Assembly: GCF_000422565.1 (NCBI RefSeq)
Contig: NZ_AUMA01000008.1
Span: 62,001 to 126,000 of the forward strand
Length of the DNA: 64,000 nucleotides
Reading direction: 5' to 3'
DNA from: Desulfovibrio aminophilus DSM 12254
GTDB lineage: Bacteria > Desulfobacterota > Desulfovibrionia > Desulfovibrionales > Desulfovibrionaceae
Below are positions 4,927 through 49,387 of the stretch, piece by piece. The notes under the pieces are model-generated. The model worked only from the letters and a program-made list of their open reading frames with translations. It was not told the origin of the DNA and did not search any database. The first letter of the stretch is position 1; each line of letters opens with the position of its first letter. A program made the translations under genes and the position numbers.

Positions 4927-6462
4927 TCAGGACGCAGGCCGGGCCTCGGGCCGCACCGCCAGCATGGGCGGCAGGAAGAGGGTCACGGCGGTGCCCTCGC
5001 CCAGGCGGCTCTGGATGTCGATGCGCCCGCCGAATTCCTCGACGATCTTCTTGATCATGGCCAGACCCAGGCCGTAGCCCTGTTCCTTGGTGGTGTAGAA
5101 GGGGCTGCACGCCTTTTCCAGATCCTGGCCGGACATGCCCTGGCCCTTGTCCGTGACGCGCAGGAAGACGAAATCCCCCTCCAGCCCGCAGGTGGTCCCG
5201 ATGACTCCGCCGCCGGGCATGGCCTCGATGGAGTTCTTGTAGAGGTTCACCAGGCACTGCTTGAGCATCTCCTGTTCGCCGCTGACCTTGGGCAGTTCGG
5301 CCGGGCAGTCCACCGGAAATTCGTAGCCCCGGCGGGCGTAGCCGATCTCCATGAGTTCCGCCGTGTCGGCGGCCAGACGGCGGATGTCCACGCTGCCCGT
5401 GGGCGCGCCGGTGGGCCGGGCGAAGTTCAGGATGCTCGTGAGCATGTGGTCCAGGCGCTTGGTCTCCTCGGCGATGATGGTCAGCTTTTCGCGGCTGGCC
5501 CCGGAGAACTCCGTGGAGCGGAGCAGGGCGTTGGTGAACCCGCCGATGGCGAAGAGCGGGTTGCGGATCTCATGGGCCAGATAGGTGGACATCTCGCCGA
5601 TGACGGCCAGCTTGTCGGCCTGCTGCTGGTGTTTCTCGCGGTAGGTCCGGGAGGTGATGTCGCGCTGCATGACCATGATGTGGGTCATGGCCCCCAGGGC
5701 GTCCAGGATGGGGTAGGAGTAGATTCGGAAGTAGAGCAGGCGGCCTTCGGCGTTGACCCGGGTCATGAGGGTTTCGGCCGCCTCGCGGTTCGCCAGGGTC
5801 TTGTGGAAAGGACAGTCCCGGTCCATGACCCGGCAGAAGGGCAGGCCGTCGCGCAGGGTCATGACCTCGAAGCAGGCCTTGCCGAGCAGGGCCTCCTTGG
5901 ACAGGCCGGTGCGCTGCCAGACGTTGCGGTTCATGTCCACCACGCGGCCCTGAAGATCCAGGACGATGATGTCCTCGCGCACTTCGTCGATGATGGCCTG
6001 CAGCAGGTTGCGTTGCCGGTCCAGGCTGACCTGGCAGTGGGTCTTCATCTTGGCCATGTCCCGCAGGCCGCAGAAGAATACGGCCGCGGCGTGGTCCACG
6101 AGGGACACCGTGGGCGGCAGGACGCGGCGCAGGGCGTCGATCCGCTGCAACCTGCCGGTCAGTTCCACCAGGTAACGGATGTCCGGGTGCGCGGCCCACA
6201 TGGCCTCGAAGGTCGGATAGACGGGAACCCCGGCGGCCTCCACCGCGCGCAGGCGGGAGCGGTCCGGGCCCGGCTCGGCGACGGCCACCAGCTCGAACCC
6301 GGGAAGAAAATCGTGGAAGTCCGGGCTGGTGAGCAGGTCCACGATGGAGAGGAAGCCCGGACCCGTGCCGAGCACGGCCACGCGGTATTCCCCCTCGCCG
6401 CTTTCATAGAGGCAGTAGTCTTCGCGCAGAGCCTTCTCTCCGGAGTCGTTCATGCGGGGCAC
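4927..6462 (-). CDS. PAS-containing sensor histidine kinase with N-terminal Rossmann-like domain
   Basis: A 511-residue soluble kinase. Residues about 26-130 begin with YRVAVLGTGPGFLSIVDLL, a nucleotide-binding Rossmann-type GxGxxG strand-loop-helix, followed by an oxidoreductase-like pattern (ELVAVAE..., YLVELTG). A PAS domain follows at about 150-270, then the dimerisation helix with LAHEIRNPLFAIGG (phospho-acceptor His297) and a C-terminal HATPase domain with N- and G-box signatures (LVNLYKNSIEAM, DKGQGM, YGLGLAMIKKI). No membrane segment is seen, so it should sense an intracellular signal. It is divergent from the universal-stress/response-regulator pair at 6540 and is the likely partner kinase, which is an inference from position. 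Confidence 0.88.
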   Translation of the reverse strand: MPRMNDSGEKALREDYCLYESGEGEYRVAVLGTGPGFLSIVDLLTSPDFHDFLPGFELVAVAEPGPDRSRLRAVEAAGVPVYPTFEAMWAAHPDIRYLVELTGRLQRIDALRRVLPPTVSLVDHAAAVFFCGLRDMAKMKTHCQVSLDRQRNLLQAIIDEVREDIIVLDLQGRVVDMNRNVWQRTGLSKEALLGKACFEVMTLRDGLPFCRVMDRDCPFHKTLANREAAETLMTRVNAEGRLLYFRIYSYPILDALGAMTHIMVMQRDITSRTYREKHQQQADKLAVIGEMSTYLAHEIRNPLFAIGGFTNALLRSTEFSGASREKLTIIAEETKRLDHMLTSILNFARPTGAPTGSVDIRRLAADTAELMEIGYARRGYEFPVDCPAELPKVSGEQEMLKQCLVNLYKNSIEAMPGGGVIGTTCGLEGDFVFLRVTDKGQGMSGQDLEKACSPFYTTKEQGYGLGLAMIKKIVEEFGGRIDIQSRLGEGTAVTLFLPPMLAVRPEARPAS

Positions 6463-6539
6463 CCCCGGTTGCAGCTTGCAATACGATCCAAAAAAGGCAA
6501 CTAATACGGTCAGCTCATACGCGGTAGAAGGAGATCGGC

Positions 6540-7409
6540 ATGGACAGACATCTTCTCGTCACGATCAGCAACGATCCCCAGCACCTGCACGGCATCCGCT
6601 ACGTGGCCTATTTCTTCCAGGACAAGCGGGACATCCGGCTGACCCTGTTCAACGTGGTGGCCGAGGCCCCGGCCGTATGGGCCGAGGAAAAGTCCTTCGA
6701 GACCCTGGCCCAGGGCGAGGAAATGGCCAAGCGCAACCTGGACCGGAGCCTGCAGACCCTCGCGGAATGCAAGCGCATCCTCGTGCAGCACGGATTCCTG
6801 CCTGACAATATCGACACCAAGCACAGCTCGCAGGGAATGTCCAGGGCCATGACCATCCTGCGCGAGGGCGAGGAAGGGCTGTACGACGCCGTGGTCCTGG
6901 GCCGGCGCGCCACCATGCGGCTGGCCGAGATCCTGGACGAGAGCGTGAGCAAGGGCCTGCTCATGGAGGAAGTCACCTTCCCGCTCTGGATCTGCCGTGA
7001 GCCCGAATGGGGGCGTCGCAACGTGCTGCTCTGCGCCGACGGCTCGGAGCCGAGCCTGCGCATGGCCGACCACGTGGGTTTCATGCTGGCCAAGGAGACC
7101 GAGCACAACGTGACCATGCTGCATGTGGCCCGCCCCGGCAATTCCGAGGATACTGCAGCGATCTTCGCCGCCACCCGGGAGGCGCTGGAGCGCAACGGCA
7201 TGGCCTCGGGACGCATCGACATACGGGTTTTGGAGGCCGCCAAGGTGGCTCCGGCCATTTTGCGCGAGGCCTCGGATCGGCGCTACGCCGCGGTGGCCGT
7301 GGGCCGTACCGGCGCGGGCGAGGGGCTGCTGGGCCGTCTGTTCATGGGCTCGGTGAGCATGGCCCTATTCCGTGAAATCCGCGAGGCCGCTCTCTGGACC
7401 TGCCGGTAG
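6540..7409 (+). CDS. Tandem universal stress protein (UspA-like)
   Basis: A 289-residue protein of two Usp-like halves: residues about 1-150 (LLVTISNDPQHLHGIRYVAYFF...DAVVLGRR) and about 160-289 (RNVLLCADGSEPSLRMADHV...YAAVAVGRTGAGEGLLGRLFMGSVS). The second half keeps a nucleotide-binding G-x2-G-x9-GS(V/S) pattern; the first is degenerate. The ribosome site AGAAGGAG precedes the ATG. It starts 77 bp from the divergent kinase and ends 13 bp before the sigma-54 activator gene, so it is probably co-transcribed with it. The function is inferred as stress-related signalling or nucleotide sensing. Confidence 0.8.
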   Translation: MDRHLLVTISNDPQHLHGIRYVAYFFQDKRDIRLTLFNVVAEAPAVWAEEKSFETLAQGEEMAKRNLDRSLQTLAECKRILVQHGFLPDNIDTKHSSQGMSRAMTILREGEEGLYDAVVLGRRATMRLAEILDESVSKGLLMEEVTFPLWICREPEWGRRNVLLCADGSEPSLRMADHVGFMLAKETEHNVTMLHVARPGNSEDTAAIFAATREALERNGMASGRIDIRVLEAAKVAPAILREASDRRYAAVAVGRTGAGEGLLGRLFMGSVSMALFREIREAALWTCR

Positions 7410-30856: not shown

Positions 30857-31660
30857 ATGCTCTTCGAGGTTCTGCGCTACCTCTGCACGCCTTGTCCTCG
30901 TCAGGTCCGGGCCCTGGGGCATCTTTCAGGGCTCATCTCCCTGGACGCGCGCCATCGCCGCTGCCGCCGCGCCTGGGCCCCGCACCTGGAGCGCTGCCGC
31001 GCGCTCATGCTTGACGCGGCCCGCGACTGCTCCCCGCGAAGGACCGCGCTCGTGGCCGGTTCCGGCCTGCTTTTGGACGTGCCCCTGGAGGAGCTGTCCG
31101 GACTCTTCGAGCAGGTGATTCTCTGCGACGTCCTGCATCTGCCCGCGATCCGCCGCCGGGCGCGCCGCCTGCCCAACGTGGATCTGGCGGCCCGCGACCT
31201 CACCGACCTGGGGGAACGGGTCTGGGCCGATCTGCGCGCGGATCGGGCTCCGGACTTGGCCGTGCCCGCGCCGACGCATTTCCTGGACCGTCGCGACCTA
31301 GACCTGGTGGTTTCCGACAACCTTCTTTCGCAGCTGCCCCTGCCGTTTCTGGAACGCGTCGGCCGCCGTTTTCCCGGCTTCGACGCCGGGGAGTTGGAAG
31401 ACTTCGCCCGCCGGATCGTGGAGGCGCATCTCGCCTGGCTGGGAGGCTTCCGGGCCCGGGTCTGCCTCATCGCCGACGTGGAGCGACGCAAGCTCCGGGG
31501 CGGCACGGTCCTGGAGTGCGAGGATCCGCTCTTCGGCGCGGCCCTGCCCGAGCCCGAGAGGGCCTGGGACTGGGACATCGCCCCCCGGCCCGAGCTCTGG
31601 CCGGACGCCGACGCTCGCCACCGTGTCTGGGGCTATTCGGACTTCAGGCCCAAGGGTTGA
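30857..31660 (+). CDS. Unrecognised protein, possibly SAM-dependent methyltransferase-like
   Basis: A 267-residue cytoplasmic protein. A GSGLLLDVPLEEL segment (residues about 68-80) after a short hydrophobic strand, followed by VILCDVLHLPAIRRRARR, resembles motif I and the acidic strand II of Rossmann methyltransferases; LDLVVSDNLLSQL could be strand 4. I cannot name a family. It has GGGGGG upstream as ribosome site. Its last 28 bp overlap the end of the convergent permease gene. Confidence 0.6.
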   Translation: MLFEVLRYLCTPCPRQVRALGHLSGLISLDARHRRCRRAWAPHLERCRALMLDAARDCSPRRTALVAGSGLLLDVPLEELSGLFEQVILCDVLHLPAIRRRARRLPNVDLAARDLTDLGERVWADLRADRAPDLAVPAPTHFLDRRDLDLVVSDNLLSQLPLPFLERVGRRFPGFDAGELEDFARRIVEAHLAWLGGFRARVCLIADVERRKLRGGTVLECEDPLFGAALPEPERAWDWDIAPRPELWPDADARHRVWGYSDFRPKG

Positions 31661-33039
31661 ACACCCCGGCCGGGGCGGGACAGCAGCACATGCAGGAGCG
31701 CGGCCAGGAGCAGGCTGGGGAAGATGCAGCCCGGTCCGTCGGTCATGGCCGGAATCTGTTTGAACGCGAGAAACCCGCCCACGGCCAGGGCCCAGGCCAG
31801 AACCGCCGAGCGCCGCACCCCGCGTTGGTAGCGGTAAGGGCCGTCCGGGTTGGTCAGCTCGGCGGCGAGATAGGGCCGTCGGAGCAGGAAATAGTCGGCC
31901 AGCAGGATGCCGAAGAGCGGGCCGAAGAGCATGCCGATGCCGTCCAGGAAGAGGATGAAGGACTCCAGGAACGAGGCCAGGAACAGCGGCACGAGGCTCA
32001 GGGCCACGGAGAGCAGGGCGGTGATCCAGAGCGCGGGCATGGCCCGCAGCCGGGGCAGGCAGTTGGTCATGGAGATGCCCGCGCCCATGATGTTGATGGC
32101 GTTGGTGGTCACGCTGGCCAGCAGGATGATGACGAAGGCCAAGGCCCCCAGGCCCAGGCGCGCGGCCGTGGAGCTGGGGTCCGAGAGGTTGGGGTCGTAG
32201 ACGCCGGTGGTCACGGCCGCGGCGATGGTGCAGATGATGCCCACGAAGGCGAACCAGAACAGGCCCAGGTTGGCCCCCAGGACGGGCGCCAGCGTGGCCG
32301 CGCTCCTGGTCCTGCAATAGCGGGTGAAGTCCGCGATCACCGGCACCCAGCCCAGGCTGAAGGCGGCCATGGCGTCCACGGCCCGGCCCACGGGCATGAG
32401 CTGGCCCTCGGGCGGGCTCCAGCGCCAGATGGCGGCCAGGGGCACGTCGCGCAGCACGAGCACGGTCTCCCACAATCCCAGCGCCAGGATGGCCACGGTG
32501 CCCAGGCATTCCATGACCTTCACCGAGCGGTGCCCGTAGAGGATGGAGAGCATGTTGAGCAGGGCCATGAGGCCCAGGCCGACGAGCAGCGGGCCCGTGT
32601 CCCCGGGCGAGCCGAAGGGCGGGGTGCCGATCCAGTAGTGCAGGATGTAGGTCACGGAGATGGCCGCGATGAAGGTGTTCACCGCGTTCCAGCCCACGAG
32701 CTGGACCACGTTGAGCAGCGAGGGCAGCATGCTGCCCGAGAGCCCCAGGGCCGGACGGGTCAGGGCCATGGTCGAGACGCCGGTGCGGAAGCCGATCAGC
32801 CCCACCAGGGCCATGACGAGGTAGGCCAGGGGGTTGGCCGTGAGCGTGGCCAGGGCCGCGCCGCCGAAGGACGCCCCGGCTACCACGCCGCCCACGTACC
32901 AGGTGCCGTTGTTGGCGTTGGCCCCGGTCCAGATGGCCAGCATGTGGCCGAAGCCGATGCTTTTGGCCTGGGGCGGCACCGGCTCGCAGGCCGCGTATTC
33001 GTGAGGCGGCGCGGGCGAGGCGCCCGCCTCCCGGCTCAC
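31633..33039 (-). CDS. NCS1-family permease (purine/cytosine/hydantoin type)
   Basis: A 468-residue permease with twelve predicted membrane helices. Family features include the N-terminal GFGHMLAIWTGANANNGTWYVGG, GWVPVIADFTRYCR and LFGPLFGILLADYFLLRR. It resembles CodB-like NCS1 transporters; a nucleobase, a vitamin precursor or a related substrate is possible. The start overlaps the stop of the YciI gene by 4 bp, so the two are co-transcribed. Confidence 0.85.
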   Translation of the reverse strand: MSREAGASPAPPHEYAACEPVPPQAKSIGFGHMLAIWTGANANNGTWYVGGVVAGASFGGAALATLTANPLAYLVMALVGLIGFRTGVSTMALTRPALGLSGSMLPSLLNVVQLVGWNAVNTFIAAISVTYILHYWIGTPPFGSPGDTGPLLVGLGLMALLNMLSILYGHRSVKVMECLGTVAILALGLWETVLVLRDVPLAAIWRWSPPEGQLMPVGRAVDAMAAFSLGWVPVIADFTRYCRTRSAATLAPVLGANLGLFWFAFVGIICTIAAAVTTGVYDPNLSDPSSTAARLGLGALAFVIILLASVTTNAINIMGAGISMTNCLPRLRAMPALWITALLSVALSLVPLFLASFLESFILFLDGIGMLFGPLFGILLADYFLLRRPYLAAELTNPDGPYRYQRGVRRSAVLAWALAVGGFLAFKQIPAMTDGPGCIFPSLLLAALLHVLLSRPGRGVQPLGLKSE

Positions 33040-34845: not shown

Positions 34846-36981
34846 TTACTTGGAGATTCTGACCCGGGTGGAGACGTGGGCCTCTCCGCCGCGCAGATCC
34901 TGTTCCTCAAGATGCGAGCCCGCGTCGGCGATCAGCTCGTTGTCTCCGAACCACGGCCCCCGCGCCGCGACCTTGCCCATGGTCTGGCCGAATCCGTGAA
35001 TGATCCCGGCGCAGCCCGGCTTGATCTTCTCGGTGAACTGGACCGGGACGCGGACCTTGCCCGTGCTCGACTCCACGGTCACGATGTCCCCGTCGGCGAC
35101 TCCCAGTCTGGCCCCGTCGAGCGGGTTGAGGATCAACGGATTGGCGTCCAGCCCGGAGACGGGGTCGCGGAGCTGGGCGTTGTTCTGCGACCAAGCCCCG
35201 GTGTTGTTCAGGAAGATGGTACGGAAGTTCACCAGGATGAAGGGGTACTTCTCCTCGTCCTTGCGGAACTCCAGGGGCAGTTCGGGGCTGGGCCATTGGC
35301 GGCCGATGTTCTCGTACATCCGCCATTCCAGCTCGATCTTGCCGCTGGGCGTGTTGAACCTGCCCGCGTCCTCGTACTTGCGGAAGCCCACGGTGCCCGG
35401 CGACCAGAGCGCGCCGTTGTCGAGCACCTCGCGCATGGACATGCCCACGCCCGAGAGTTCGATGTCGTAGTATTCGACATCATCCTTGAAGGCGAAGTAC
35501 TGCGGAAACATGCGCTTGCCGAGTTCGATCATCACGCGGTTGGCGTGGCGCGATTCGCCGATGGGTTCGACCACGGGCCGGCAGACCGCCGCCGTGTGTC
35601 CGAAGTTGTACCACCAGGGCATGTACAGGAGTTCCCAACGTTCGAAGTTGGTCTGGTCCGGCAACACCAGATCGGCCCACTTCATGGTCTCCGAGGGCAG
35701 AATCTCGGTGAGCACGAACAGCTCCAGCTTGTAGGAGCCGTCGGGGTTCTTCATCTTCATGGCCTCGCGCCATTCACCGGAGCCCATCTCCGACAGGGCC
35801 GGGTTGCATTCCGAGGCGAAGAAGACCTTGAGGCCGTCGTCCTTCACGGCCTGGGCCGCGTACCAGGTCGGTTCGAGGAAGAAGGTGTAGTTGTCGAACT
35901 TGCCGCGGTTGGGGCCGGTGCGGTGGTAGCCCAGCGTCTTGAGATCCGGCGCGGGCGGCGTCGGCTTCACCGGGGCCATGGGCGCGATCTCCGGCATGGG
36001 CTGGCCGCCGGGGTTGTCCAGGTTGCCGGTGATGACCAGGAAGATGGACCATGCCTGGCCCCAGTCCATGGCGTTGCCGTACATGATGGACTTGAAGGCG
36101 TCCACGCAGACGCTGGGGGCGGCGGCGCACATCTCGGCCAGCTTGATGATGTCCTTGGCCGGAACGTCGCAGATCCTGCTCATGGCCTTGGGCGTCTTGT
36201 CCTTGATGAAGGCCATGAGTCCGTCCATGTCGCCCTCGCGCACCCACTTGTCGCAGAAGGCCTTGTCGTACAGGCCCTTGGTCAGCAGGTGGTGGCACAT
36301 GCCCAGGAACAGGGCCGCGTCGCCGCCGGGCTTGATGGGAATCCACCAGTCGGCCTTGGCCGCCTCGGTGCGGAAGATGGGGTCGATGACCACCAGCTTC
36401 GCTCCGCGCTCCTTGGCGTCGAGGATGTCCCGGGGGACGCAGGCGTCGTCCAGGCAGCCGAAGGGATGGCGCCCGGAGAGGATCATGATGCCGCCCTTTG
36501 GCACCGTGAAGTACATGGGCGCGATGTGGTGGTTGGGAAAACAGCCGAAGGTGTGCAGATGGGCCATGATCTTGGCCGAGTCGCAATGGGGCAGGCCGGT
36601 GGAGATGAATCCGCCCACGGCGTTGACGAAGCGCCACTTGGGGTCCGTGGTGGAGTGCGGGAACATGGAGTAGGTGAACTTGTGTCCTTCCCCGCGCGCG
36701 ATGAGTGCGCGGAGCTTCTTCTCCATGATGTCCATGGCCTCGTCCCAGCCGATGCGTTCGAATCTGCCCTCGCCGCGTTCGCCCACGCGCTTCAGGGGAT
36801 GCTTGAGCCGTTCGTTGGAATAGAGCGTGGTGATGCCAGCCATGCCCTTGACGCACATCTTGCCCCGCGCCCTGGGGTTGCCCTTGACCTCCTTGACCAC
36901 GCCGTCCTCCACGCGGGCCAGGATGGCGCACTCAGCCTTGCACTGGTAGCAGACCGTCGGAATCCATTTGCTCTCATGCAT
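34846..36981 (-). CDS. Cytoplasmic molybdopterin-dependent oxidoreductase, substrate unknown
   Basis: A 711-residue bis-MGD enzyme. Cys11, Cys14, Cys18 and Cys43 bind an N-terminal [4Fe-4S] cluster. Cys133 in LPHCDSAK lies where the Mo/W-ligating Cys/Sec/Ser is found in related enzymes (for example the Cys of NapA-type and acetylene-hydratase-type proteins). There is no Tat signal. The remaining domains (WADLVLPDQTNFERWE, LGVADGDIVTVES) are complete. It resembles thiosulfate/polysulfide reductase-like large subunits in general, but the short N-terminus and active-site context do not match one named reaction. With the Fe-S partner and no membrane anchor it is probably a soluble two-subunit enzyme. 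The upstream gene encodes the likely sensor-regulator. Confidence 0.85.
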   Translation of the reverse strand: MHESKWIPTVCYQCKAECAILARVEDGVVKEVKGNPRARGKMCVKGMAGITTLYSNERLKHPLKRVGERGEGRFERIGWDEAMDIMEKKLRALIARGEGHKFTYSMFPHSTTDPKWRFVNAVGGFISTGLPHCDSAKIMAHLHTFGCFPNHHIAPMYFTVPKGGIMILSGRHPFGCLDDACVPRDILDAKERGAKLVVIDPIFRTEAAKADWWIPIKPGGDAALFLGMCHHLLTKGLYDKAFCDKWVREGDMDGLMAFIKDKTPKAMSRICDVPAKDIIKLAEMCAAAPSVCVDAFKSIMYGNAMDWGQAWSIFLVITGNLDNPGGQPMPEIAPMAPVKPTPPAPDLKTLGYHRTGPNRGKFDNYTFFLEPTWYAAQAVKDDGLKVFFASECNPALSEMGSGEWREAMKMKNPDGSYKLELFVLTEILPSETMKWADLVLPDQTNFERWELLYMPWWYNFGHTAAVCRPVVEPIGESRHANRVMIELGKRMFPQYFAFKDDVEYYDIELSGVGMSMREVLDNGALWSPGTVGFRKYEDAGRFNTPSGKIELEWRMYENIGRQWPSPELPLEFRKDEEKYPFILVNFRTIFLNNTGAWSQNNAQLRDPVSGLDANPLILNPLDGARLGVADGDIVTVESSTGKVRVPVQFTEKIKPGCAGIIHGFGQTMGKVAARGPWFGDNELIADAGSHLEEQDLRGGEAHVSTRVRISK

Positions 36982-37055
36982 TCTGCCGCCCTCCGTTCAC
37001 AGTGTGGAACACGGGAAGAGCCGTGGTCGCCCGCGGCCGTCCCCTCTCAAGAGGA

Positions 37056-37082
37056 GAGCGTCCGAGTCGGGAAAAGGTTCCC
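37056..37082 (-). promoter_or_regulatory. ECF-type promoter-like sequence before the molybdoenzyme gene
   Basis: On the minus strand GGGAACC (37082 to 37076) is followed by about 14 bp and ACGCTC (37061 to 37056). Many ECF sigma factors use a -35 with GGAAC/AAC and a -10 with CGTC or similar. It lies in the 133-bp gap between the sigma-fusion gene and the molybdoenzyme gene. The -10 match is weak and the spacing short. Confidence 0.35.
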
Positions 37083-37114: not shown

Positions 37115-38518
37115 TCAGGACGAGGATCGGGGAAGGAAGTCCGCGCAGGCGAACCCGCTCAGGTCGCAGGGCGCTGAAAGCACTCCGGCTTCGTGGGCCA
37201 TGTCGGCGAACGTCTTCATGCGGCCTTCGTCCGGCTCCAGATCGTCAAAACTGACGATCCGCTCGTCCAACACCTGTCGGGCGATGTCTGGATCAATGCC
37301 CGTGTGGTCGGACTGCACGGCCGCGCCGAAGCGGGCGTTCCGGCGGAGTCTGTTTCTGGCGGCGTAGAGGGCGCGCAGGTAATCCGCCACCACCTGCCCC
37401 TGCCGGGCGGCATAATCCCTCCGTACGACCAGGATGCAGCAGAGGTGGCCAGGGAGGATGTCGCGGGAATTCATGACCGTATCGCCGATTCCGTCCCGGA
37501 CGCATTTCGCGCTCCAAGGCTGGGCGCAGAAAAAGGAGCCGATTTCGTTCCGCTGCAGGGAATTGATGATCGAGGAGGGATTGACGACCAGACTGGGCAG
37601 GCCGGCAAGTTCCGGGTGCTCCCTCATGAAGCGGTGCAGCAGCACGCCGTGGGTGGAGAACGGGCTGGGCAGGCCGATGCGTTGCCGCCGCATCGTGTGC
37701 CTGGAGATGGAGATGGCGCTGCCGTCGTGGTGTCCGTCCATGACGTACAGCAACTGGGCGCCGGCCTCGCGCAGGCTCAGGGCCAGGGGGGCCATGATGA
37801 AGGCGGCGTCCAGACGGCCGCGCGCCAGGTCCGCCGCCAGGGCGGCCCAGGAGAGGTAGCGGCGCGAGAGCAGAGGCAGGCTGCGGCCCTGATTGAGATG
37901 GTCGGCGCACATGGCCAAGAGGTGGTCGGACACCGGCATGTAGCCCACGCGGAAGAGCGTCTCGCAACGGAATGCGGCCATGCGTTCCTGGAGCAGGGGA
38001 CGGGCATTGAACAGGCGCTTCTTGACGGTGCCTTCCGGCAGGGAGCAGGCTCTGGCCACTTCAGGGACGGACCAGCCCCGCCGGTAATGCAGTCGGCAGA
38101 CGTCCCGCAGGTGCCCGGGCAGGTCTTCCAGCGTGGCGTCGAAGGCCGACAGCATTTCGGCGGAGCAGAGGGCCTCTTCCGGCGTCCTGGCGCCGGGAGT
38201 CGGAAGCAGGTCGCGGACGTCGTCCTGGTCCAGGGAGACGGTTCGGGGTTGGGCGTCCGCCATGCGCAGGCATTGAGAGCGGACGATGGCCGCCAGCCAG
38301 GAGGGAAACGCCTCGTTGACGCGCAGCTGGCCGAGCTTGCGGAAGGCGGTGAGAAAGGCCTCCTGCACCGCGTCCTCCGCCTGCAGGCCGGCGGGCAGCC
38401 AACGCCGCGCCAGGCGCATGGTCCAGGGGTAGAACCGGTCGATGATGCACCGCCAAGCGATTGCATCGCCCTGCGAGGCCCTGCTCACGAGAGGCGTCAG
38501 AGGAGCCGAAGGGGACAT
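37115..38518 (-). CDS. ECF-type sigma factor fused to an NrtA-like ligand-binding domain
   Basis: A 467-residue fusion. Residues 20-87 are sigma region 2 (AWRCIIDRFYPWTMRLARRWL..AEDAVQEAFLTAFRKL) and 131-178 are region 4 (LEDLPGHLRDVCRLHYRRGWSVPEVARACSLPEGTVKKRL). Residues about 189-455 match the periplasmic-type nitrate/bicarbonate/sulfonate binding fold: LFRVGYMPVSDHL, GRLDAAFIMAPLAL, GLPSPFSTHGVLL, ..FFCAQPWSAKCVRDGIGDTVMNSRDILPGH. The last block is the NrtA/CmpA/NasS signature. No signal peptide or membrane helix, so the binding domain acts in the cytoplasm. The start at 38518 follows GGAGGCGA. It is directly upstream of the molybdoenzyme genes and probably controls them in response to a small ligand. 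Confidence 0.88.
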   Translation of the reverse strand: MSPSAPLTPLVSRASQGDAIAWRCIIDRFYPWTMRLARRWLPAGLQAEDAVQEAFLTAFRKLGQLRVNEAFPSWLAAIVRSQCLRMADAQPRTVSLDQDDVRDLLPTPGARTPEEALCSAEMLSAFDATLEDLPGHLRDVCRLHYRRGWSVPEVARACSLPEGTVKKRLFNARPLLQERMAAFRCETLFRVGYMPVSDHLLAMCADHLNQGRSLPLLSRRYLSWAALAADLARGRLDAAFIMAPLALSLREAGAQLLYVMDGHHDGSAISISRHTMRRQRIGLPSPFSTHGVLLHRFMREHPELAGLPSLVVNPSSIINSLQRNEIGSFFCAQPWSAKCVRDGIGDTVMNSRDILPGHLCCILVVRRDYAARQGQVVADYLRALYAARNRLRRNARFGAAVQSDHTGIDPDIARQVLDERIVSFDDLEPDEGRMKTFADMAHEAGVLSAPCDLSGFACADFLPRSSS

Positions 38519-38892: not shown

Positions 38893-38939
38893 TGGCGTCC
38901 CCAAGGGGATTTGAACCCCTGTTATCGGCGTGAAAGGCC
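38893..38939 (-). repeat. Distal att repeat: 47-bp 3' part of tRNA-Glu
   Basis: Identical over 47 bp to 49341-49387, the 3' part of tRNA-Glu from the anticodon stem-loop through CCA. The 5' part of a tRNA is absent; beyond 38939 the sequence diverges (CCCCCTTTAAAC). This is the host end of the island left by site-specific integration. Confidence 0.93.
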
Positions 38940-39061: not shown

Positions 39062-42000
39062 TCACGCTACGCCGTCAACTTGGCGAAGAGATTCATACAG
39101 TCGTCCCGGCCCAAGCAAGACATCCTTCAGGCCCGCCCTCACTTTCTCCGAGTTGATCGCCTGGGTGCTCATCGTCGTGTGGGCCTCAAGGGCATCCATG
39201 ATGGCGTTCAGAATTTCCCGGGCCAAGTCCGGCGAGTTTGCGAACTGCTCCTTCGTGTTGCTCATGGCCTGCTGAACAAGCAGGTCCGACTCAAGCAACT
39301 TCCCCTTGAGGACGTTGTTCACGTAGACGAGCTTGTCGTCGTCCGTGAGATCGCCTTCGAACAGGTCGTTCACCCTGGCAATGATGTCTGCCAGCAAGGC
39401 TTTTTCCTTCTCCTGCACCGAACCGTCGCCGGACTCCGTCATGGGTTTGATTTTTGGCGTCTCCCCTTCGTTCAAGGGCAGCGACACCTTGCCCTGGGAT
39501 TTGAGGCTGTGGTGCGTCAGCACCACCTTGCTCAAGTCCACGCCCTCCCGTTCTCTTCCAAATTCCAGCAGGGGCAGCAGGCGCTTGTAGAAGATGGCCC
39601 GCTTCTCCACATCGGTGTCGCCGTAGTCGAAGATTTGGGAGAGGAAGGCGTACATGCGCAGGTAGGTCATGAGGTCGCGCTTGAAGAGGGCAAGCGAGTT
39701 CATCGCATCCCGCGCCTCCCGTGCCGCCGTCTCGTCCTTGTCCGCCAGGGCGGCGGCCAGCGCTTCCTTGGCGGCCTTGAAGCGCCGGAGCAGACGGTCC
39801 GCCACCGGAGTGAGGGCCACGACAAGGTCGCTCTGTTTCGCTTTCGGGTTCAATACAACGGTAACGACGCGCTCCACTTCCGGCGTGTCGTAGTGGCCGG
39901 AGGCGTCGAGCTTGGCCCGCAGGTTGAGAACCAAGTTCGGGTCGGTGACGTCTTCCAGTTCCGCCGTCGTGTGGTAAATCTTGAAGGCCGCGAGGATTTC
40001 GGCCGGGTCGTTGCGGAAGTCCACGACGTAGACGTTGTCCTTGCCTGGGTACGCCCTGTTCAGGCGCGAGAGGGTCTGCACGGCATGAATGCTGGCGAGG
40101 CGCTTGTCCACATACATGCCGCACAGCAGGGGTTGGTCGAACCCCGTCTGGAACTTGTTGGCGGCGATCATGATGGAGAAATCATCAGTGGCGAAGGCGC
40201 GACGGATGTCCCTGCCCTTGAGGGCGGGGTTGAGCGTCTTGCTGTTCTCCGTGAACGGCTCCGGTCCGGATTCTTTGTCGTTCACCTCGCCGGAGAAGGC
40301 GACGAGCGAACCGAGCTTGTATGCTTGGCTTCGGATGTAGGCGTCCATCGCGAGCTTCCAGCGCACGGCCTCAAGGCGGCTGCCGACCACGACCATGGCC
40401 TTGCCTCGGCCTCTCAGGAGCGGTTGCACCATTTTGCGGAAGTGCTCCACCACCATCTGGACCTTCTCGGAGACATTGTACGGGTGCAGTTGAACCCAGC
40501 GCAGGATGCTTTTGAGCGCCTCGCTCCGCTCCACCTGAGTGTCGTCGTATTCCTTGCCCTCATAGGCGAGTCGAAAGGCGGTCTTGAAGGGCGTGTAGTT
40601 CTTGAGCACGTCGAGGATGAAGCCTTCCTCGATCGCTTGGCGCATGGAGTAGACGTGGAAGGGCTCGGGGAGGTTGTCCGGCCCGGCCGGTTGATCCGGG
40701 CGGGGCCGCTGGCCGAAAAGCTCAAGGGTCTTGTGCTTGGGGGTGGCGGTGAAGGCCACGTAGGTGATGCCTTTCTTCGCGGCGCGCGCCGCCATTTCCG
40801 CCGCGAGCACGTCCTCGGTCGAAACCTCGCCGCCGTCCTCCAGGTCTTTCAACTCGTCGGCGTTGAGCACGGCCTTGAGCTTGGCGGCGGCCTCACCGGT
40901 CTGTGAGGAATGGGCCTCGTCCGCGATGACGGCGAAACGCTTGCCCTCGGTGGCGGCCAGCTTCTGCACCATTTCCAGGGCGAAGGGGAAGGTCTGGATG
41001 GTGCAGACAACGATCTTCTTGTTGCCCGACAATGCGGCGGTCAGGGCTTTGCTCTTGCTGCTCCCCTCGTTGGTGATGGACGCGACCACGCCCATGGTGC
41101 GCTCGAAGCTGAAAATGGCTTCCCTCAGTTGCTCGTCCAGCACGGTGCGGTCAGAGACGACAAGAACGGAGTCAAAGAGATTCTTGTCCGAGGAACTGTG
41201 CAGATCAGACAGGAAATGGGCGGTCCAGGCGATGGAGTAAGTCTTGCCGGAGCCTGCGGAATGCTGGATGAGATACTTGCCGTTGCCGTCCTCCCCATCC
41301 TTGAGGATTGCGGCTTGCAGCTTCCGCGTGGCGTCCAGCTGATGGTAGCGGGGGAAGATGTGGGCCTTGATCTGCTTCTTGCCGTCCCGCTCGGCCACGA
41401 GGTAGCGCCCGAGAATCTCCAGCCAACTTTCGCGCTGCCAGACTTCTTCCCAGAGGTAGGCCGTGGGATGCCCCTTGGGATTGGGCGGGTTTCCCGCGCC
41501 GCCGTCGTGCCCCTTGTTGAAGGGCAGGAAGCGCGTCTTGGCCCCTTTGAGCCTGGTGGTCATGTATACTTCGCTGTTGCTCACGGCGAAATGCACCAGC
41601 GCCCCGCTGGGGAACCCGAGGAGCGGCTCCGCTGGTTTGCCCTTGGGCTGGGGGTCGCGATCAAAGCGGTACTGGTCCACGGCGTCCTGCACGGACTGCG
41701 TGAAATCGCTCTTGAGTTCCGCCGTGGCGACGGGAATGCCGTTCAGGAACAGAACCAGATCGATGGAGTTTTCGTTTTGCAGGGAGTAGTGAACCTGACG
41801 CACCACGCGGAGCCGGTTGGCGGCATAGCGGGCGATGGTGTCGGGGTTCATGGACATGGCCGGTTTGAACTGCGCCAGCGGGAGCGCCTGCTTGAGCCCC
41901 ACCATGTCCACGCCGTGGCGCAGGGTCTCCAGGGCGCCGCGCTGGGCCAGGATTTGCCGGACCCGCTGGGCCAGGGCGACGCCCGTGTCGGCCCCCTTGT

Positions 42001-42184
42001 CCTTGGCGAGGGCTTCCCAGGCCTTTGGCTGCGTCTCCCGCACCCAGGCGATGAGGTCCGCCGGATACAGGGCAAGCGCCCGGTCGTATCCCTTGGCGTC
42101 GTCCTCGGCATAGAGCCAGCCGTTCGCGGCCAGATGCCCGCAGATTTCCGTTTCGAGGTGGGTTTCCTTGTGGAGATCGCCCAT
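39062..42184 (-). CDS. hsdR: Type I restriction enzyme, R subunit
   Basis: A 1040-residue motor-nuclease. The PD-(D/E)xK nuclease is at residues 130-160 (SIDLVLFLNGIPVATAELK; Asp142, Glu156, Lys158). The SF2 translocase has Walker A HSAGSGKTYSIAW (Lys314) and DEAH (422-425), and motifs such as TATPKHKTL follow. With HsdM and HsdS it would cut unmodified foreign DNA. The stop is near the left end of the island. It starts 4 bp after the nuclease-like gene, so the four hsd-region genes form one operon. Confidence 0.95.
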   Translation of the reverse strand: MGDLHKETHLETEICGHLAANGWLYAEDDAKGYDRALALYPADLIAWVRETQPKAWEALAKDKGADTGVALAQRVRQILAQRGALETLRHGVDMVGLKQALPLAQFKPAMSMNPDTIARYAANRLRVVRQVHYSLQNENSIDLVLFLNGIPVATAELKSDFTQSVQDAVDQYRFDRDPQPKGKPAEPLLGFPSGALVHFAVSNSEVYMTTRLKGAKTRFLPFNKGHDGGAGNPPNPKGHPTAYLWEEVWQRESWLEILGRYLVAERDGKKQIKAHIFPRYHQLDATRKLQAAILKDGEDGNGKYLIQHSAGSGKTYSIAWTAHFLSDLHSSSDKNLFDSVLVVSDRTVLDEQLREAIFSFERTMGVVASITNEGSSKSKALTAALSGNKKIVVCTIQTFPFALEMVQKLAATEGKRFAVIADEAHSSQTGEAAAKLKAVLNADELKDLEDGGEVSTEDVLAAEMAARAAKKGITYVAFTATPKHKTLELFGQRPRPDQPAGPDNLPEPFHVYSMRQAIEEGFILDVLKNYTPFKTAFRLAYEGKEYDDTQVERSEALKSILRWVQLHPYNVSEKVQMVVEHFRKMVQPLLRGRGKAMVVVGSRLEAVRWKLAMDAYIRSQAYKLGSLVAFSGEVNDKESGPEPFTENSKTLNPALKGRDIRRAFATDDFSIMIAANKFQTGFDQPLLCGMYVDKRLASIHAVQTLSRLNRAYPGKDNVYVVDFRNDPAEILAAFKIYHTTAELEDVTDPNLVLNLRAKLDASGHYDTPEVERVVTVVLNPKAKQSDLVVALTPVADRLLRRFKAAKEALAAALADKDETAAREARDAMNSLALFKRDLMTYLRMYAFLSQIFDYGDTDVEKRAIFYKRLLPLLEFGREREGVDLSKVVLTHHSLKSQGKVSLPLNEGETPKIKPMTESGDGSVQEKEKALLADIIARVNDLFEGDLTDDDKLVYVNNVLKGKLLESDLLVQQAMSNTKEQFANSPDLAREILNAIMDALEAHTTMSTQAINSEKVRAGLKDVLLGPGRLYESLRQVDGVA

Positions 42185-42188
42185 TGGC

Positions 42189-43100
42189 TTAGTTCTCCTG
42201 GTAGCTCAGCTCAAAGAACCGTTGCGCCCTCATGATGTCGTCGCGGTTGCGGATGGTCACTTCGAGGTCGCCCGTGCCGAGGTGCCCGATGTTGCGCAGG
42301 TCGCGCGTGAAACCCTCGATGAGGTTTTCAGGAGTCGGCGGGCATTTGACGTACACCAGCAGACGCTGCTCCTTCACGCGGGCTTCCACGCAGGCGAAAT
42401 TCTTGATCCGCATGAAGGCGATGTAGCACTTGACCACTTTCTTTTCCACATCATCGCCAAGGGCGAGCAACGTGTCCTCCAGGGCCTGGTAAAGCTCTTT
42501 GAGGCCGTCGGGCGCGCCGCCGAGATGTTCGGAAACGCTCTTGTAGTGCTTTGGGGAAGACTCCTTGCCTTTTCGCTCGTGAACCTCCGGCTCGGTGCTG
42601 ACGGCCTTCGTCCGTTCAAGGATGAGAAAGCCCTCCGGAAAATGGCGATAGCGGATCAGTTCGATGTTGCGGTTCATCTGCCGCACGGCGTGTTCGTCAT
42701 ACCTCGTGAAGTCTCCGGCGATGCACAGCAGTCTCGGGCCTGACCACTCGATCTCAGCGGCGGCCTTCTTGCCCAGCCTGTCGAGCACGAGCAGCTTGAA
42801 TTCGGCCTTATGATCCAACAGCCAGTCGAGATAGAACAGACCTTGGGTGACGACGTTCTCGTTGCTGGTCCGTTTGTACTCGATGATGACCGGGCATCCG
42901 TTCTCGTCGATGCCGAGCGTGTCGATGCGTCCCCGGTGCTGTGCGCCGGTGGAGTGCTCGGACGCCAGGAAGCGGACGCCGAGCAGGGTCTCAAGGTTCC
43001 GTTCCATGAGGGTCTGAAGGGTGCGCTCCAGGGCCATGGACTGTCCCTTGAGTTCGGCGACGCCGTTGGGGCCAGTGCGGAACAGCTTGATGTCGCTCAT
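42189..43100 (-). CDS. NucS/DUF91-like PD-(D/E)xK nuclease with DUF5655-type C-terminus
   Basis: A 303-residue protein. Residues 45-80 hold a PD-(D/E)xK nuclease core: RIDTLGIDENGCPVIIEYKR with Asp60, Glu74 and Lys76. The C-terminal 110 residues (LKELYQALEDTLLALGDDVEKKVVKCYIAFMRIKNFACVEARVKEQRLLVYVKC) resemble DUF5655, a domain often found in restriction and transposon-linked proteins. Position between hsdS and hsdR with 4-bp overlaps makes it a standard member of this restriction operon. It may be an accessory nuclease; what it cuts is unknown. Confidence 0.8.
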   Translation of the reverse strand: MSDIKLFRTGPNGVAELKGQSMALERTLQTLMERNLETLLGVRFLASEHSTGAQHRGRIDTLGIDENGCPVIIEYKRTSNENVVTQGLFYLDWLLDHKAEFKLLVLDRLGKKAAAEIEWSGPRLLCIAGDFTRYDEHAVRQMNRNIELIRYRHFPEGFLILERTKAVSTEPEVHERKGKESSPKHYKSVSEHLGGAPDGLKELYQALEDTLLALGDDVEKKVVKCYIAFMRIKNFACVEARVKEQRLLVYVKCPPTPENLIEGFTRDLRNIGHLGTGDLEVTIRNRDDIMRAQRFFELSYQEN

Positions 43101-44407
43101 GCGGCCTCCTTGTCTACCAGCCCGCGCACGTCGATTTTGCCGGTGACGGCGGCGGAGATGAGCGCGGCGCGGCGTTCCTTGAGCAGTTCAATGGCGCGGG
43201 TTGCCTCTTGGGTAAGGGTTTCGCCTCTGGCGATCTCACTCCCCAAGTATGTGAGGATGATCTCTTGTTCCTCTGAAGGCGGAACTGAAATAGAAAGCTC
43301 CATGATGTTGCTTGAAGAAATTGACGCGAGGTTCGTGCTTTGCTTGGAACGGCTCATGAAATAAAACTGTGCGGCGCTTGAGCTGGTAAATGCGTTGAGC
43401 CACTGCGCAGAGACGCCTCGCGGGCGAACTGCAAACACATGGTTTTGATGAATGCAGGGGACAATCTCGCCGCTCCAAATATGCCCTCGCCCAAGTTTGT
43501 CATAATCCCCGCCCTCGTTCATGAGCACATCTCCTGGCTGGAGCAAGTAGCGAGGGAGGTCCGCTTGCGGGATCGAGAGCGTCGCCATTTCTTCCAAGTC
43601 CAAATGGCCGTCTTGCACGTTGGCCACGCGAAGATAAGGCACTTCGATTGTGGTCTGCCCCGCGTAATCTTTCCCCTTGGCGATGCCTGTTTGTACCGTT
43701 GCCATGAACTTGAGCCGCTTCACCTCCCAATGCTCCGGCACCTCGCCGAGCCACTCAATGCCGGAGTCCTTCATGGGCGCGTCGGGGTTCAAACCCTTGG
43801 TGACGGCGTGGGAGATGATGGCTTGGCGCTTTTCCGCCAGCAGGGCGATGAGCCGCTCCTGCTCGGCCACGAGGGCGTCGATCTTGGCGGTCTCGCGGTC
43901 GAGAAAGGCGGCGATGGCCTGCTGTTCAGCCTCGGATGGGATGGCAAGAGTGATGTTGCGCATCTCCGAATAGTTCGTGCTCCAGAGGTCGGCAACGATA
44001 CCCTTTCCAAAGCGGTAGTATTCCTCTTGAAAGGGAATGCTTCTTAATAGCTGGTGGGTGAACGCGGCATTTATTGTACGAGGTTCAAGGACTGTGCAAA
44101 TCAACGAGACGGAACCATCAATTGATGCAAGCCCAGAAGAACCTTTCCTGTCAGAGCGGCTATTGATGACGAAATCACCTGCACAGACTCTTTTCCTGTT
44201 GTCACCGTCATCCGTCTTGGCGGCTGTCTCCAACTGCGGAACAACGCCATTCTTGGTCACGGAAAGCGGGGCATAGTCCTTGTCGCTGACCTTCTCGCGT
44301 CTTTCCGAGAAGAAGTAGCCAAGGCGTTTCAAGTCCCAATGCTCCGGCACTTCCCCTAGCCACTCCACGCCGGAGTCCTTGTACTTTTCGTAGCGTGGGA
44401 AGCTCAT
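43097..44407 (-). CDS. hsdS: Type I restriction-modification specificity subunit
   Basis: A 436-residue specificity subunit with two target-recognition domains, each introduced by a near-identical stretch: [17 protein letters not shown] (residues 13-29) and [17 protein letters not shown] (216-232). Each domain ends in a helical linker rich in Glu, Leu and Arg ([79 protein letters not shown]). The two halves recognise the two parts of a bipartite DNA site. The start overlaps hsdM by 4 bp and the stop overlaps the nuclease gene by 4 bp. Confidence 0.94.
43725..43771. repeat. Imperfect 47-bp direct repeat within hsdS, copy 1
   Basis: Copy in the second target-recognition domain; it matches 44334-44380 at 42 of 47 positions by eye. 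Such repeats let recognition domains be exchanged by recombination. Confidence 0.75.
44334..44380. repeat. Imperfect 47-bp direct repeat within hsdS, copy 2
   Basis: Copy in the first target-recognition domain, encoding the WLGEVPEHW block; the counterpart is at 43725-43771. Confidence 0.75.
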
Positions 44408-46239
44408 GCGCGCAGCCCCTTGAGCATGGCGACGATGCGCTCGGACGTGGCCGCGAGGTCCGCGTCGATCTCCGCCAGCGGGCGCGGCGGCTCGAACACG
44501 TAAAAGTGCCGGTTGAAGGGAATCTCGTACCCGACCTTGGTCTTGCCCTGGTCGATCCAGGCGTCCGGCGCGTGGGGCAGCACCTCGCGCTTGAAGTAGG
44601 CCTCGACGTCCTCGGCCAGGGGCACGTTTTCGGTGTCGCGCAGGCTGCTGTCCGGCTGCGGCTTGCCCTTCTGCTTGCCCTTCTGCCCCAGCACGACTTT
44701 TCCGGCCTCGTCGCGCAGGGGGCGCTCCACGGTGATGGTGCGGTAGCCGAAGTCCTGGGTCTTGAAGATGCGCGAAAGGGGCGCGGCCTTCACCTTGCCG
44801 CCCGTCGGGGCCTCGGGGGCCGCGTCGCCCGGCAGGAGGATCTGGCGGGCCGTCTCCTTGCCGTTTTCGTCGAGCACCGTGGCGAGCCTGGCCTCGGTGA
44901 AGTCTCTGTACAGGGCCGTGATGTCCGCGATGTGCTGGTCGGAAAGCTCGTTGCGTTTGCTGCCCAGGCTCTTGCGCATCTTCTGCCAGAAGGAGCCGGC
45001 GTCGATGAGCTGGACCTTGCCCTTGCGCGCGGCGTCCTTGCGGTTGGAGAGAATCCAGACGTAGGTGGAGATGCCCGTGTTGTAGAACATGTCCGTGGGC
45101 AGAGCGATGATGGCTTCGAGCAGGTCGTTCTCCAGCACGTAGCGCCGGATTTCGCTTTCCCCGCTGCCCGCGCCGCCGGTGAACAGGGGTGAGCCGTTGA
45201 GCACGATGCCGAAGCGGCAGCCGCCCTGGTCCGCGTGGCGCATCTTGCTGATGAGGTGCAGCAGGAAGAGCAGGGAGCCGTCGGACACGCGGGGCAGGCC
45301 GGGGCCGAAGCGTCCGTTGTAGCCCTCCTGTTCGTGCTCCTTGCGCACTTCGCGTTCGATCTTCTTCCACTCCACGCCGAAGGGCGGGTTGGAGAGCATG
45401 TAGTCGAAGGTCTTGGCCGGGTGCCCGTCGTCGGAGAGGGTGTTGCCGGGCACGATGTTGGCGATGTCCTGGCCCTTGATGAGCATGTCCGCCTTGCAGA
45501 TGGCGTAGGACTCGTCGTTGAGCTCCTGGCCGAACATGGTGAGCCGGGCTCTGGGATTGCGCGCCTCCAGGTACTCCCCGGCCACGGAGAGCATGCCGCC
45601 CGTGCCCGCCGTGGGGTCGTAGATGGTGCGCACGGCGCTGGTGTTGGTGAGTTCCTCCTCGTCCTCCGCGAACAGCAGGGAAACCATGAGGCGGATGACC
45701 TCGCGCGGGGTGAAGTGCTCTCCGGCGGTTTCGTTGGAGGCTTCCGCGAACTTGCGGATGAGTTCCTCGAAGATCAGGCCCATCTGGGCGTTGGAAACCT
45801 CGTCCGGGTGCAGGTCGATCTGCGCGAAGCGTTCGGTGACGAGGAAGAGCAGGTTGCACTTCGCCAGCCGGTCGATCTGGGAGAAGAAGTCGAAGCGCGT
45901 GAAGATGTCCTCGACCTCGGGCGAGAAGGACTGCACGTACTTGGCGAGGTTCTCGCGGATGTCGTCCGGCGCGCCCAGGAGCCTGGGCAGGTCCAATGGC
46001 GAGGTGTTGTAGAAGTGTTGGCCGGACTTGCGGAGCAGGTAGGGGGCCGGGTTCACCCTCGCCGCCTTCTTGGCCTTGTATTCCGCGAGGACGGCGGGCT
46101 TGGTCTTTTTGAGCACGCAGTCGAGGCGGCGGAGCACGGTGAAGGGCAGGATGACCTTGCCGTATTCTGATTGTTTATAGTCGCCGCGAAGAAGGTCGGC
46201 GACGGACCAGATGAAGGCGGAAAGGGCGGGTTGGTTCAT
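44404..46239 (-). CDS. hsdM: Type I restriction-modification DNA methyltransferase subunit
   Basis: A 611-residue N6-adenine methyltransferase. SAM motif I is DPTAGTGGM (208-216) and the catalytic NPPF is at 284-287. The N-terminal HsdM domain ([35 protein letters not shown]) and the C-terminal helical region are complete. The start at 46239 is the family start; the frame upstream is not HsdM-like. It is the first gene of the operon and overlaps hsdS by 4 bp, so modification is made before cutting. Confidence 0.95.
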
Positions 46240-46575
46240 GGAGCGTGGTCTTCCTCGTACTGGGAATTCGCCCGGAGAAGCCGTGAGGCGGCTGTTCCGG
46301 GAGTGGCGGTACGTTACATAAAGGCGAGTCGTCTGGCTAGGGGCGGCCAGGTGATGTCTTTGAATATACAGGCCGTAAGGCATCGCCGTCGTGCCTGACC
46401 CAGACGACCCCATGAGACGGGCCGGTCCATCATGGGGGAAGGAGCGCGAGGCTCCGAGGGGCCTGAACAGATCGGTGAAACGATCAGACAGCGGCGGCGA
46501 AGCTGCAGGAGATAGAAGGCGGGAGTTCAGACGCCTGGGAAAAGGCGCCCATTCAAGCAACGACGACGTGAAACG
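46240..46575. other. Gap between hsdM and the HicB-like gene
   Basis: 336 bp. I found no supported gene and no HicA-like toxin frame. It should contain the hsdM promoter on the minus strand; no clear boxes stood out. Confidence 0.5.
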
Positions 46576-49340: not shown

Positions 49341-49387
49341 TGGCGTCCCCAAGGGGATTTGAACCCCTGTTATCGGCGTGAAAGGCC
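49341..49387 (-). repeat. Proximal att repeat: 47 bp within tRNA-Glu
   Basis: Identical to 38893-38939. It runs from the 3' CCA end through the whole anticodon loop, so strand exchange probably occurred at the anticodon stem-loop and the tRNA was reconstituted. Confidence 0.93.

Follow-up and report, generated by a model that had tools for sequence, protein, structure and literature searches.

How is a sigma factor regulated when it carries a transporter-type binding domain in its own chain, and which genes does it serve? This question is raised by a gene of Desulfovibrio aminophilus that lies in the 64,000-nucleotide stretch of DNA analyzed here (the window). A preliminary description had located the open reading frame correctly but had not stated its strand, which is minus, and it had missed the operon that lies directly 3' of the gene on the same strand, as well as the promoter-like site in between. 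The features of the locus are collected in Table 1.

Table 1. Features of the sigma fusion locus, in window coordinates.
Feature	Position	Strand	Basis or remark
ECF sigma factor/NMT1-type binding-domain fusion P0001, 467 aa	37115..38518	minus	ORF, Pfam, AlphaFold2, fold matches
Sigma-70 region 2, residues 26-87	38258..38443	minus	PF04542
Sigma-70 region 4, residues 125-173	38000..38146	minus	PF08281
NrtA/NMT1-type binding domain, residues 186-467	37118..37963	minus	fold matches, alignment of 33 fusions
ECF-type promoter-like site GGGAACCTTTTCCCGACTCGGACGCTCT	37055..37082	minus	after the sigma stop codon, ahead of the operon
Molybdopterin oxidoreductase, 711 aa, PsrA/PhsA-like; Mo-ligand position occupied by Cys133; export signal not seen	34846..36981	minus	
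4Fe-4S electron-transfer subunit, 183 aa	34282..34833	minus	
HPP-family membrane protein, 256 aa	33442..34212	minus	PF04982

A sigma factor and a whole binding domain in one protein

We found that P0001 matches Sigma70_r2 (residues 26-87, 5.9e-12), Sigma70_r4_2 (125-173, 3.5e-7) and NMT1_2 (191-396, 9.2e-21), each above the Pfam gathering cut-off. The sigma half also scores above the cut-off of TIGR02937, and the top structure matches of this part are ECF structures. Regions 2 and 4 are the sole sigma regions present, as expected of an ECF factor, and the additional NMT1_2 domain begins at residue 191, C-terminal to region 4, in the position of a regulatory extension.

AlphaFold2 modeled P0001 from a 21-sequence alignment with a mean pLDDT of 81.9 and a pTM of 0.63, the latter leaving the placing of the domains relative to each other uncertain. 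In the model the N-terminal part is helical, residues 90-118 between the two sigma regions are of low confidence, and the C-terminal part alternates between alpha and beta elements. The C-terminal 285 or so residues matched 3UN6 (Z 35.1), the regulatory domain of CmpC (Z 32.2) and NrtA (2G29; Z 31.9 over 283 residues at 2.6 A), and the last of these matches places the domain in the NrtA fold. The claim that one protein joins sigma regions 2 and 4 to a whole binding domain is thus upheld by Pfam and by fold matching alike, and the sequence blocks on which it was based (GRLDAAFIMAPLAL, PFSTHGVLL and NSRDILPGH) are all present in P0001. Structure prediction had been set beforehand as a check on this claim, with a missing binding fold counting against it; the C-terminal binding fold is present.

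The protein had also been described as lacking a membrane helix. Among 21 homologues no such helix was found, and the fusion has none of the usual kind since the maximum 19-residue Kyte-Doolittle mean of 1.75 is too low. In the same 21 sequences 38 of 282 columns are invariant in the sensor half and 12 of 183 in the sigma half. The sensor half is therefore conserved as strongly as the sigma half, and with 38 of 282 columns invariant we rejected the idea that the C-terminal part is a decaying passenger domain.

Distribution and origin of the fusion

The D. aminophilus genome (3.42 Mb) gave one full-length match to the fusion. Within the window's family a search of 199 genomes yielded 20 full-length fusions, spread over 19 genomes. 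At the level of the class, 32 of 347 genomes gave profile matches, 25 from the window's family and 7 from a second family of the same order, and one of the 32 (G655) is a fragment of the binding domain only, at a contig edge. In a sample of the phylum the fusion was detected in 4 of 395 genomes at E<=1e-15, all four from the window's family. A Desulfobacterales MAG (L036) also carries the fusion, so the spread is under-sampled in the phylum sample, which had returned the window's family alone. The named hosts are Desulfovibrio-type anaerobes.

We studied 33 loci from 32 genomes (the window, L036, L038-L056 and L165-L176; genome G002 has two), some of which are close kin of one another. The family search flagged one internal stop each in G032, G069 and G045; the class search flagged none, and the extracted open reading frames are open. 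Among the 33 translated matches the sole stop is the terminal one in L054. The two parts are joined in frame at all 33 loci, with no pattern of separate genes or sequencing errors, and we therefore rejected a join produced by sequencing or assembly. In a tree that combines the 33 sigma-fused domains with 18 other domains of this kind, and which carries long-branch warnings, a branch with support of 100/100 parts all sigma-fused domains from the others. Because of this separation the sequences fit a single fusion event at the origin of the 33 fusions.

A promoter-like site between the sigma gene and the operon

A site of the form GGGAAC(C/T)TTT...GCTCT, or a near variant of it, lies between the sigma gene and the operon, with one fixed spacing in 29 of 33 loci and a slightly longer one in the other 4. 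We take a GGAAC-type -35 and a GTC/CTC-type -10 element to be usual in ECF target promoters. From the first batch of 21 loci we derived a pattern (GGAAC, GTAAC or CGAAC followed by C or T, a run rich in T and finally CTCT, GTCT or something close to these), which was found in all 21, every match being 27 nt, the maximum length that the pattern permitted. Across 500 Markov shuffles it matched 0.35 of the 21 loci on average and never more than 3; this comparison overstates independence, since the loci scored are the ones that defined the pattern and are mutually related. For the same reason the 12 loci added later, which lie outside the definition of the pattern, are a fairer test; 8 of them fit the pattern, and in the other 4 the site is longer by about 2 nt, as read by eye.

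We found that the strict form matches once in the 3.42 Mb of D. aminophilus, at the locus, and its control does not match at all. In genomes with the GGTAAC type, 7 of 7 have a single site at <=1 mismatch, again at the locus (control, 3 matches). A single exact site at the locus is also present in 7 of 8 genomes with the GGGAAC type, the eighth (G089) having a CCTCC form, and elsewhere in these 8 genomes the one-mismatch GGGAAC sites number 17, compared with 29 for a reversed control pattern. The second fusion of G002 has a CGAAC-type promoter. Taken together, the subtype patterns, which are blind to targets spelled differently, place the exact site once and at the locus in 14 of 15 scanned genomes, and because of this the sigma factor appears to be dedicated to one target operon. 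Recognition of the site in Table 1 by this sigma factor is what we infer from its form and position.

The motif was not found upstream of the sigma gene, in 300 nt at 20 loci and in 56 nt at L036, so autoregulation through the same motif was not seen. A role as a broad stress sigma factor was not supported either, with one exact site per genome and fewer one-mismatch matches than for the reversed control.

The downstream operon encodes a molybdenum enzyme, an FeS protein and an anion transporter

At 32 of the 33 loci the fusion gene is followed, in the same orientation, by genes for an FeS protein and a molybdopterin oxidoreductase; L169 is cut off by a contig edge. Each of the 33 loci also has one gene for a small-anion transporter, of the HPP family in 20 and of the FNT family in 13, as counted in the stretches taken around each locus and confirmed by Pfam for representatives. 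The HPP protein of the window scores 93.9 bits against PF04982 (cut-off 27.2), and FNT representatives score 150.9 bits (L049) and 146.4 bits (L036) against PF01226 (cut-off 34.6); the FNT gene matches both the NirC and the FocA models below their cut-offs. HPP and FNT loci are intermixed on the tree of the molybdenum enzyme, which carries long-branch warnings, implying that the two transporters were probably exchanged at least twice. Two genomes, from two further families in the phylum (L113 and L114), carry a module of molybdopterin oxidoreductase, FeS protein and HPP protein that has no sigma fusion in its vicinity, and the enzymes of these two modules fall inside the fused set on the enzyme tree.

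The molybdenum enzyme is nearer to PsrA (211.5 bits) than to NapA (90.8 bits) in a search of the PDB. Its Cys133 aligns with a Cys of 2VPW, as in PsrA/PhsA enzymes with a Cys ligand, and this Cys is presumably the Mo ligand in PsrA; from this residue onward the enzyme reads CDSAK. The similarity to polysulfide and thiosulfate reductases of the PsrA/PhsA type extends over nearly the full length. However, the enzyme scores 234 bits against the PhsA equivalog model, far below the cut-off of 694, it has HPP or FNT neighbors, and no export signal was seen in it, the protein starting MHESKWIPTVCYQC, already at the Fe4S4 domain.

Several loci have features of their own. The FeS protein of the L036 operon (4996-7002) holds an inserted pyridine-nucleotide-disulphide oxidoreductase part, which for that reason suggests NAD(P)H-linked electron flow in this operon. 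In L051 (2297-3955; identified by Pfam), and in its counterpart in L052, a protein that combines FmdE with a molybdopterin-binding (MoCF) part is encoded directly after the FeS gene. In the window an NCS1 cytosine/purine-type permease (31633-33039) lies 3' of the HPP gene on the same strand, and it is absent from the other loci as clustered. On the other side, a 27-bp exact direct repeat of the 3' end of tRNA-Glu (38893-38919 and 49341-49367) bounds about 10.4 kb with a type I restriction-modification system (HsdR, 39062-42184; HsdM, within 44404-46560) and, next to HsdR, a DUF5655 protein (42189-43100). This stretch resembles a tRNA-targeted island, and the sigma fusion sits just outside it.

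The binding pocket departs from that of nitrate-binding proteins

NasS, which controls the antiterminator NasT, uses an NrtA-group fold as a nitrate sensor, and by analogy with NasS and NrtA the fusion had been expected to bind nitrate or bicarbonate. The pocket does not bear this out. NrtA contacts nitrate via Trp102, Gln155, His196, Gly240 and Lys269, as given in passages of PMC13204499. The equivalents of Trp102 (Trp224, by alignment) and His196 (His290) are kept in the fusions; the Gly240 position is residue 332, which is Ala, Ser or Gly, and the Lys269 position is Cys361 in all 33, a mapping that rests on equal spacings and on alignment with the Lys of CmpC. The His-Gly and Gly-Lys spacings are 44 and 29 in a plasmid NasS/NrtA-like protein and 42 and 29 in the fusion, with Cys361 at the Lys position, and the spacing of 29 from Gly/Ala to Lys/Cys is common to NrtA, the NasS/NrtA-like protein and the fusion. 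The Gln155 equivalent was not placed in the fusion by spacing, which differs there.

Invariant in all 33 fusions are D198, H199, W224, H263, H264, H290, C331, W335, S351, H358, C360 and C361, so that three Cys and five His are fixed among the fused domains. We compared these positions with those of 18 relatives, which are either standalone or fused to a receiver. Among them, 17 have Arg and one has Lys at position 264, and position 331, Cys in every fusion, is Val in 18 of 18; Cys360 is present in 14, Cys361 in 12 and His358 in 11. The alignment thus indicates that the sigma-fused domains exceed their relatives by one His and one Cys. From the NrtA Gly240 and Lys269 positions it follows that C331 and C361 are predicted to lie at the ligand; as a guess, H199, H263, H264, H358 and C360 may line the cleft.

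We found that 3UN6, the nearest solved structure, was deposited with zinc. Binding proteins homologous to it occur beside clade B CO dehydrogenases, and passages of PMC6344411 propose Ni2+ import for them; these NitT/TauT-type proteins share the nearest fold with the fused domain and have Cys-Cys at the equivalent place. Passages of PMC13188914 describe SaoX as the binding protein in an organometal system with a link to selenocysteine. Against the SaoX model NF040735 (cut-off 300) two standalone relatives that were tried scored 80.1 and 62.4 bits, and the fused domain gave no match at E<=0.01. The 3UN6-type proteins and SaoX serve in transport, and His264 and Cys331 set the fused domain apart from them.

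Because Cys replaces the anion-binding Lys of NrtA and the invariant set is rich in Cys and His, the most likely signal would be a metal or metalloid species of thiophilic character, or else a small anion that is bound to a metal and handled by the molybdenum enzyme, rather than free nitrate. Taken alone, we put this class of ligand at a little under an even chance. A plain metal sensor fits poorly, because HPP and FNT proteins carry small anions in known cases; a metal-bound small anion or a metalloid oxyanion would reconcile the pocket with the anion transporters. The arsenite-sensing binding protein AioX, which has a molybdenum enzyme under its control, is a precedent for the sensing of a metalloid oxyanion by such a protein tied to a molybdenum enzyme, and it is among the weaker fold matches (8ED5, Z 15.4; 6ESK, Z 15.3).

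The neighbors of standalone relatives were also considered as a source for the ligand, and this approach was rejected since the 16 loci, drawn from the best matches, are mixed. CooS, above the TIGR01702 cut-off, lies beside NitT/TauT-type ABC binding proteins at four of them (L115, L116, L120 and L122), Mrp/Nuo-type genes near two (L117 and L119; one checked) and chemotaxis-type genes near one (L118, by eye); the remainder have no theme. L123, L127 and L130 encode fusions of a receiver, an NMT1-type domain and CheW (Pfam on L127), and L123 encodes an additional standalone copy with no evident signal peptide. Like the sigma fusion, these proteins place the same group of binding domain within a signalling protein, but their output is chemotaxis or two-component signalling and not a sigma factor.

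A proposed model for ligand gating and its alternatives

We propose that the C-terminal domain, of a type that in other proteins passes ligands to a membrane transporter, has become a sensor in the cytoplasm. Binding of the ligand would close its two lobes and change their contact with regions 2 and 4, and this closure would free or shape the sigma factor for core RNA polymerase. The holoenzyme would then read the promoter directly 3' of its own gene, and transcription of one operon would supply an HPP or FNT transporter along with a Mo-cofactor oxidoreductase in the cytoplasm and the FeS protein that partners it. A separate anti-sigma factor would not be required. That the fusion is a ligand-gated ECF sigma factor serving the single adjacent operon, gate and operon taken jointly, we consider probable. 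Our fuller reading, in which a one-component sigma factor is gated by a metal, metalloid or metal-bound anion on a repurposed transporter domain and acts on one promoter and one operon for a molybdenum enzyme and an anion transporter, is put forward tentatively. A one-component switch with no anti-sigma factor had been proposed at the outset; this is the simplest reading because, in a survey by clustering of neighbor genes, no cluster besides the operon recurs across the loci. Direct switching by a ligand is something that we infer.

Two of the alternatives keep the gate and differ from the main reading in the ligand alone. With nitrate or nitrite as the signal, a reading that carries the NasS analogy of the preliminary description over to the operon, the molybdenum enzyme would be a cytoplasmic nitrate reductase and the HPP or FNT protein would move nitrite. 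The NrtA/CmpC-group fold and the retained Trp and His agree with this, as do the NirC match of the FNT gene, although below cut-off, and the exchange of HPP for FNT, which suggests one common small anion; a passage of PMC4137279 also cites Maeda 2014 for a report of an HPP protein as a candidate transporter of nitrite. We nevertheless regard this ligand as unlikely, given the Cys at the Lys269 position throughout and an enzyme closer to PsrA than to NapA. A link to nitrite through NrfA was rejected, since genomes with the fusion show no enrichment for NrfA (10 of 19, compared with 110 of 180 others, a comparison confounded by kinship) and it is not found in the D. aminophilus genome. With bicarbonate, formate or a CO-linked signal as the C1 ligand, FNT and HPP proteins would carry formate and the enzyme would resemble a formate dehydrogenase, and here the FocA match of the FNT gene, also below cut-off, the CooS neighbors of sensor-domain relatives at 4 of 16 loci and the bicarbonate-transport proteins CmpA/CmpC among the fold matches are in favor. 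However, the CDSAK of the enzyme is unlike the Cys/Sec-His motif that we take formate dehydrogenases to have at the Mo ligand, and the binding proteins linked to CO dehydrogenase are interpreted in passages of PMC6344411 as Ni importers. We hold this to be the least probable of the readings.

In the other two alternatives no small molecule would act on the sigma factor directly. A disulfide among Cys331, Cys360 and Cys361, or a metal or FeS cofactor bound by them, might act as a redox or thiol switch, which would suit three Cys that are invariant in the fused set, one of them Val in all 18 relatives, and hosts that are Desulfovibrio-type anaerobes; yet the entire binding fold and five His are kept as well, beyond what a thiol switch needs, and such a switch seems improbable to us. 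Equally improbable is a partner such as the molybdenum enzyme or FeS protein that binds the C-terminal domain and holds or frees the sigma factor, as in NasS-NasT. The strict adjacency of the fusion gene to the same enzyme would agree with this, and the extensions of ECF42 and ECF57 are thought, in part of PMC8999054, to work via protein interaction, but the conserved binding-site residues persist. The two modules that have no adjacent fusion also speak against a partner of this kind, although they show only that the enzyme is independent of the sigma factor.

Relation to known sigma factors and sensors

NrtA-group folds are common to NasS, the NrtC/CmpC regulatory domains and the fusion, which differs from the others in being joined to a sigma factor, in the change of the nitrate Lys to Cys and in its Cys/His-rich invariant residues. 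The extensions of ECF factors described in passages of PMC8999054 are SnoaL, Cys-rich, TPR, WD40 and membrane types; a binding-protein extension is not mentioned in its section 3.5 and tables, and no Desulfovibrio-type organism appears by name among the ECF representatives that it tabulates. ECF41 (SnoaL-type) and the Cys-rich ECF238 factor CorE, which senses metal, are described there as ECF factors that lack an anti-sigma factor and have a regulatory domain at the C-terminus; the fusion shares this domain order and probably also the lack of an anti-sigma partner. In contrast to both, the fusion has a complete two-lobed transporter-type domain of about 280 aa, in which NMT1_2 is the sole Pfam family, and a single adjacent putative target operon. 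In the literature searched, an NMT1/NrtA-type sigma extension was not found in titles and abstract openings among the matches listed; 10.1093/nar/gkaa1229 or PMC9879109 may mention one. Judged by its domains and residues, the fusion would belong with the ECF factors that have regulatory extensions, and its sensor resembles an NrtA/NasS nitrate sensor but does not appear to qualify as one.

ECF sigma factors mostly sense through a separate anti-sigma protein. The fusion seems to have its sensor within its own polypeptide and to act on one promoter beside its gene, so that ligand, switch, promoter and target are testable with one protein and one DNA fragment. The fusion may also offer a modular part, the specificity of which might be changed by swapping binding domains. 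If our reading is true, a metal- or metalloid-gated one-component sigma factor would be a class of sigma switch for which we found no described precedent in the literature searched, and in the organisms that carry it the fusion could reveal the substrate of a conserved, uncharacterized cytoplasmic molybdenum enzyme.
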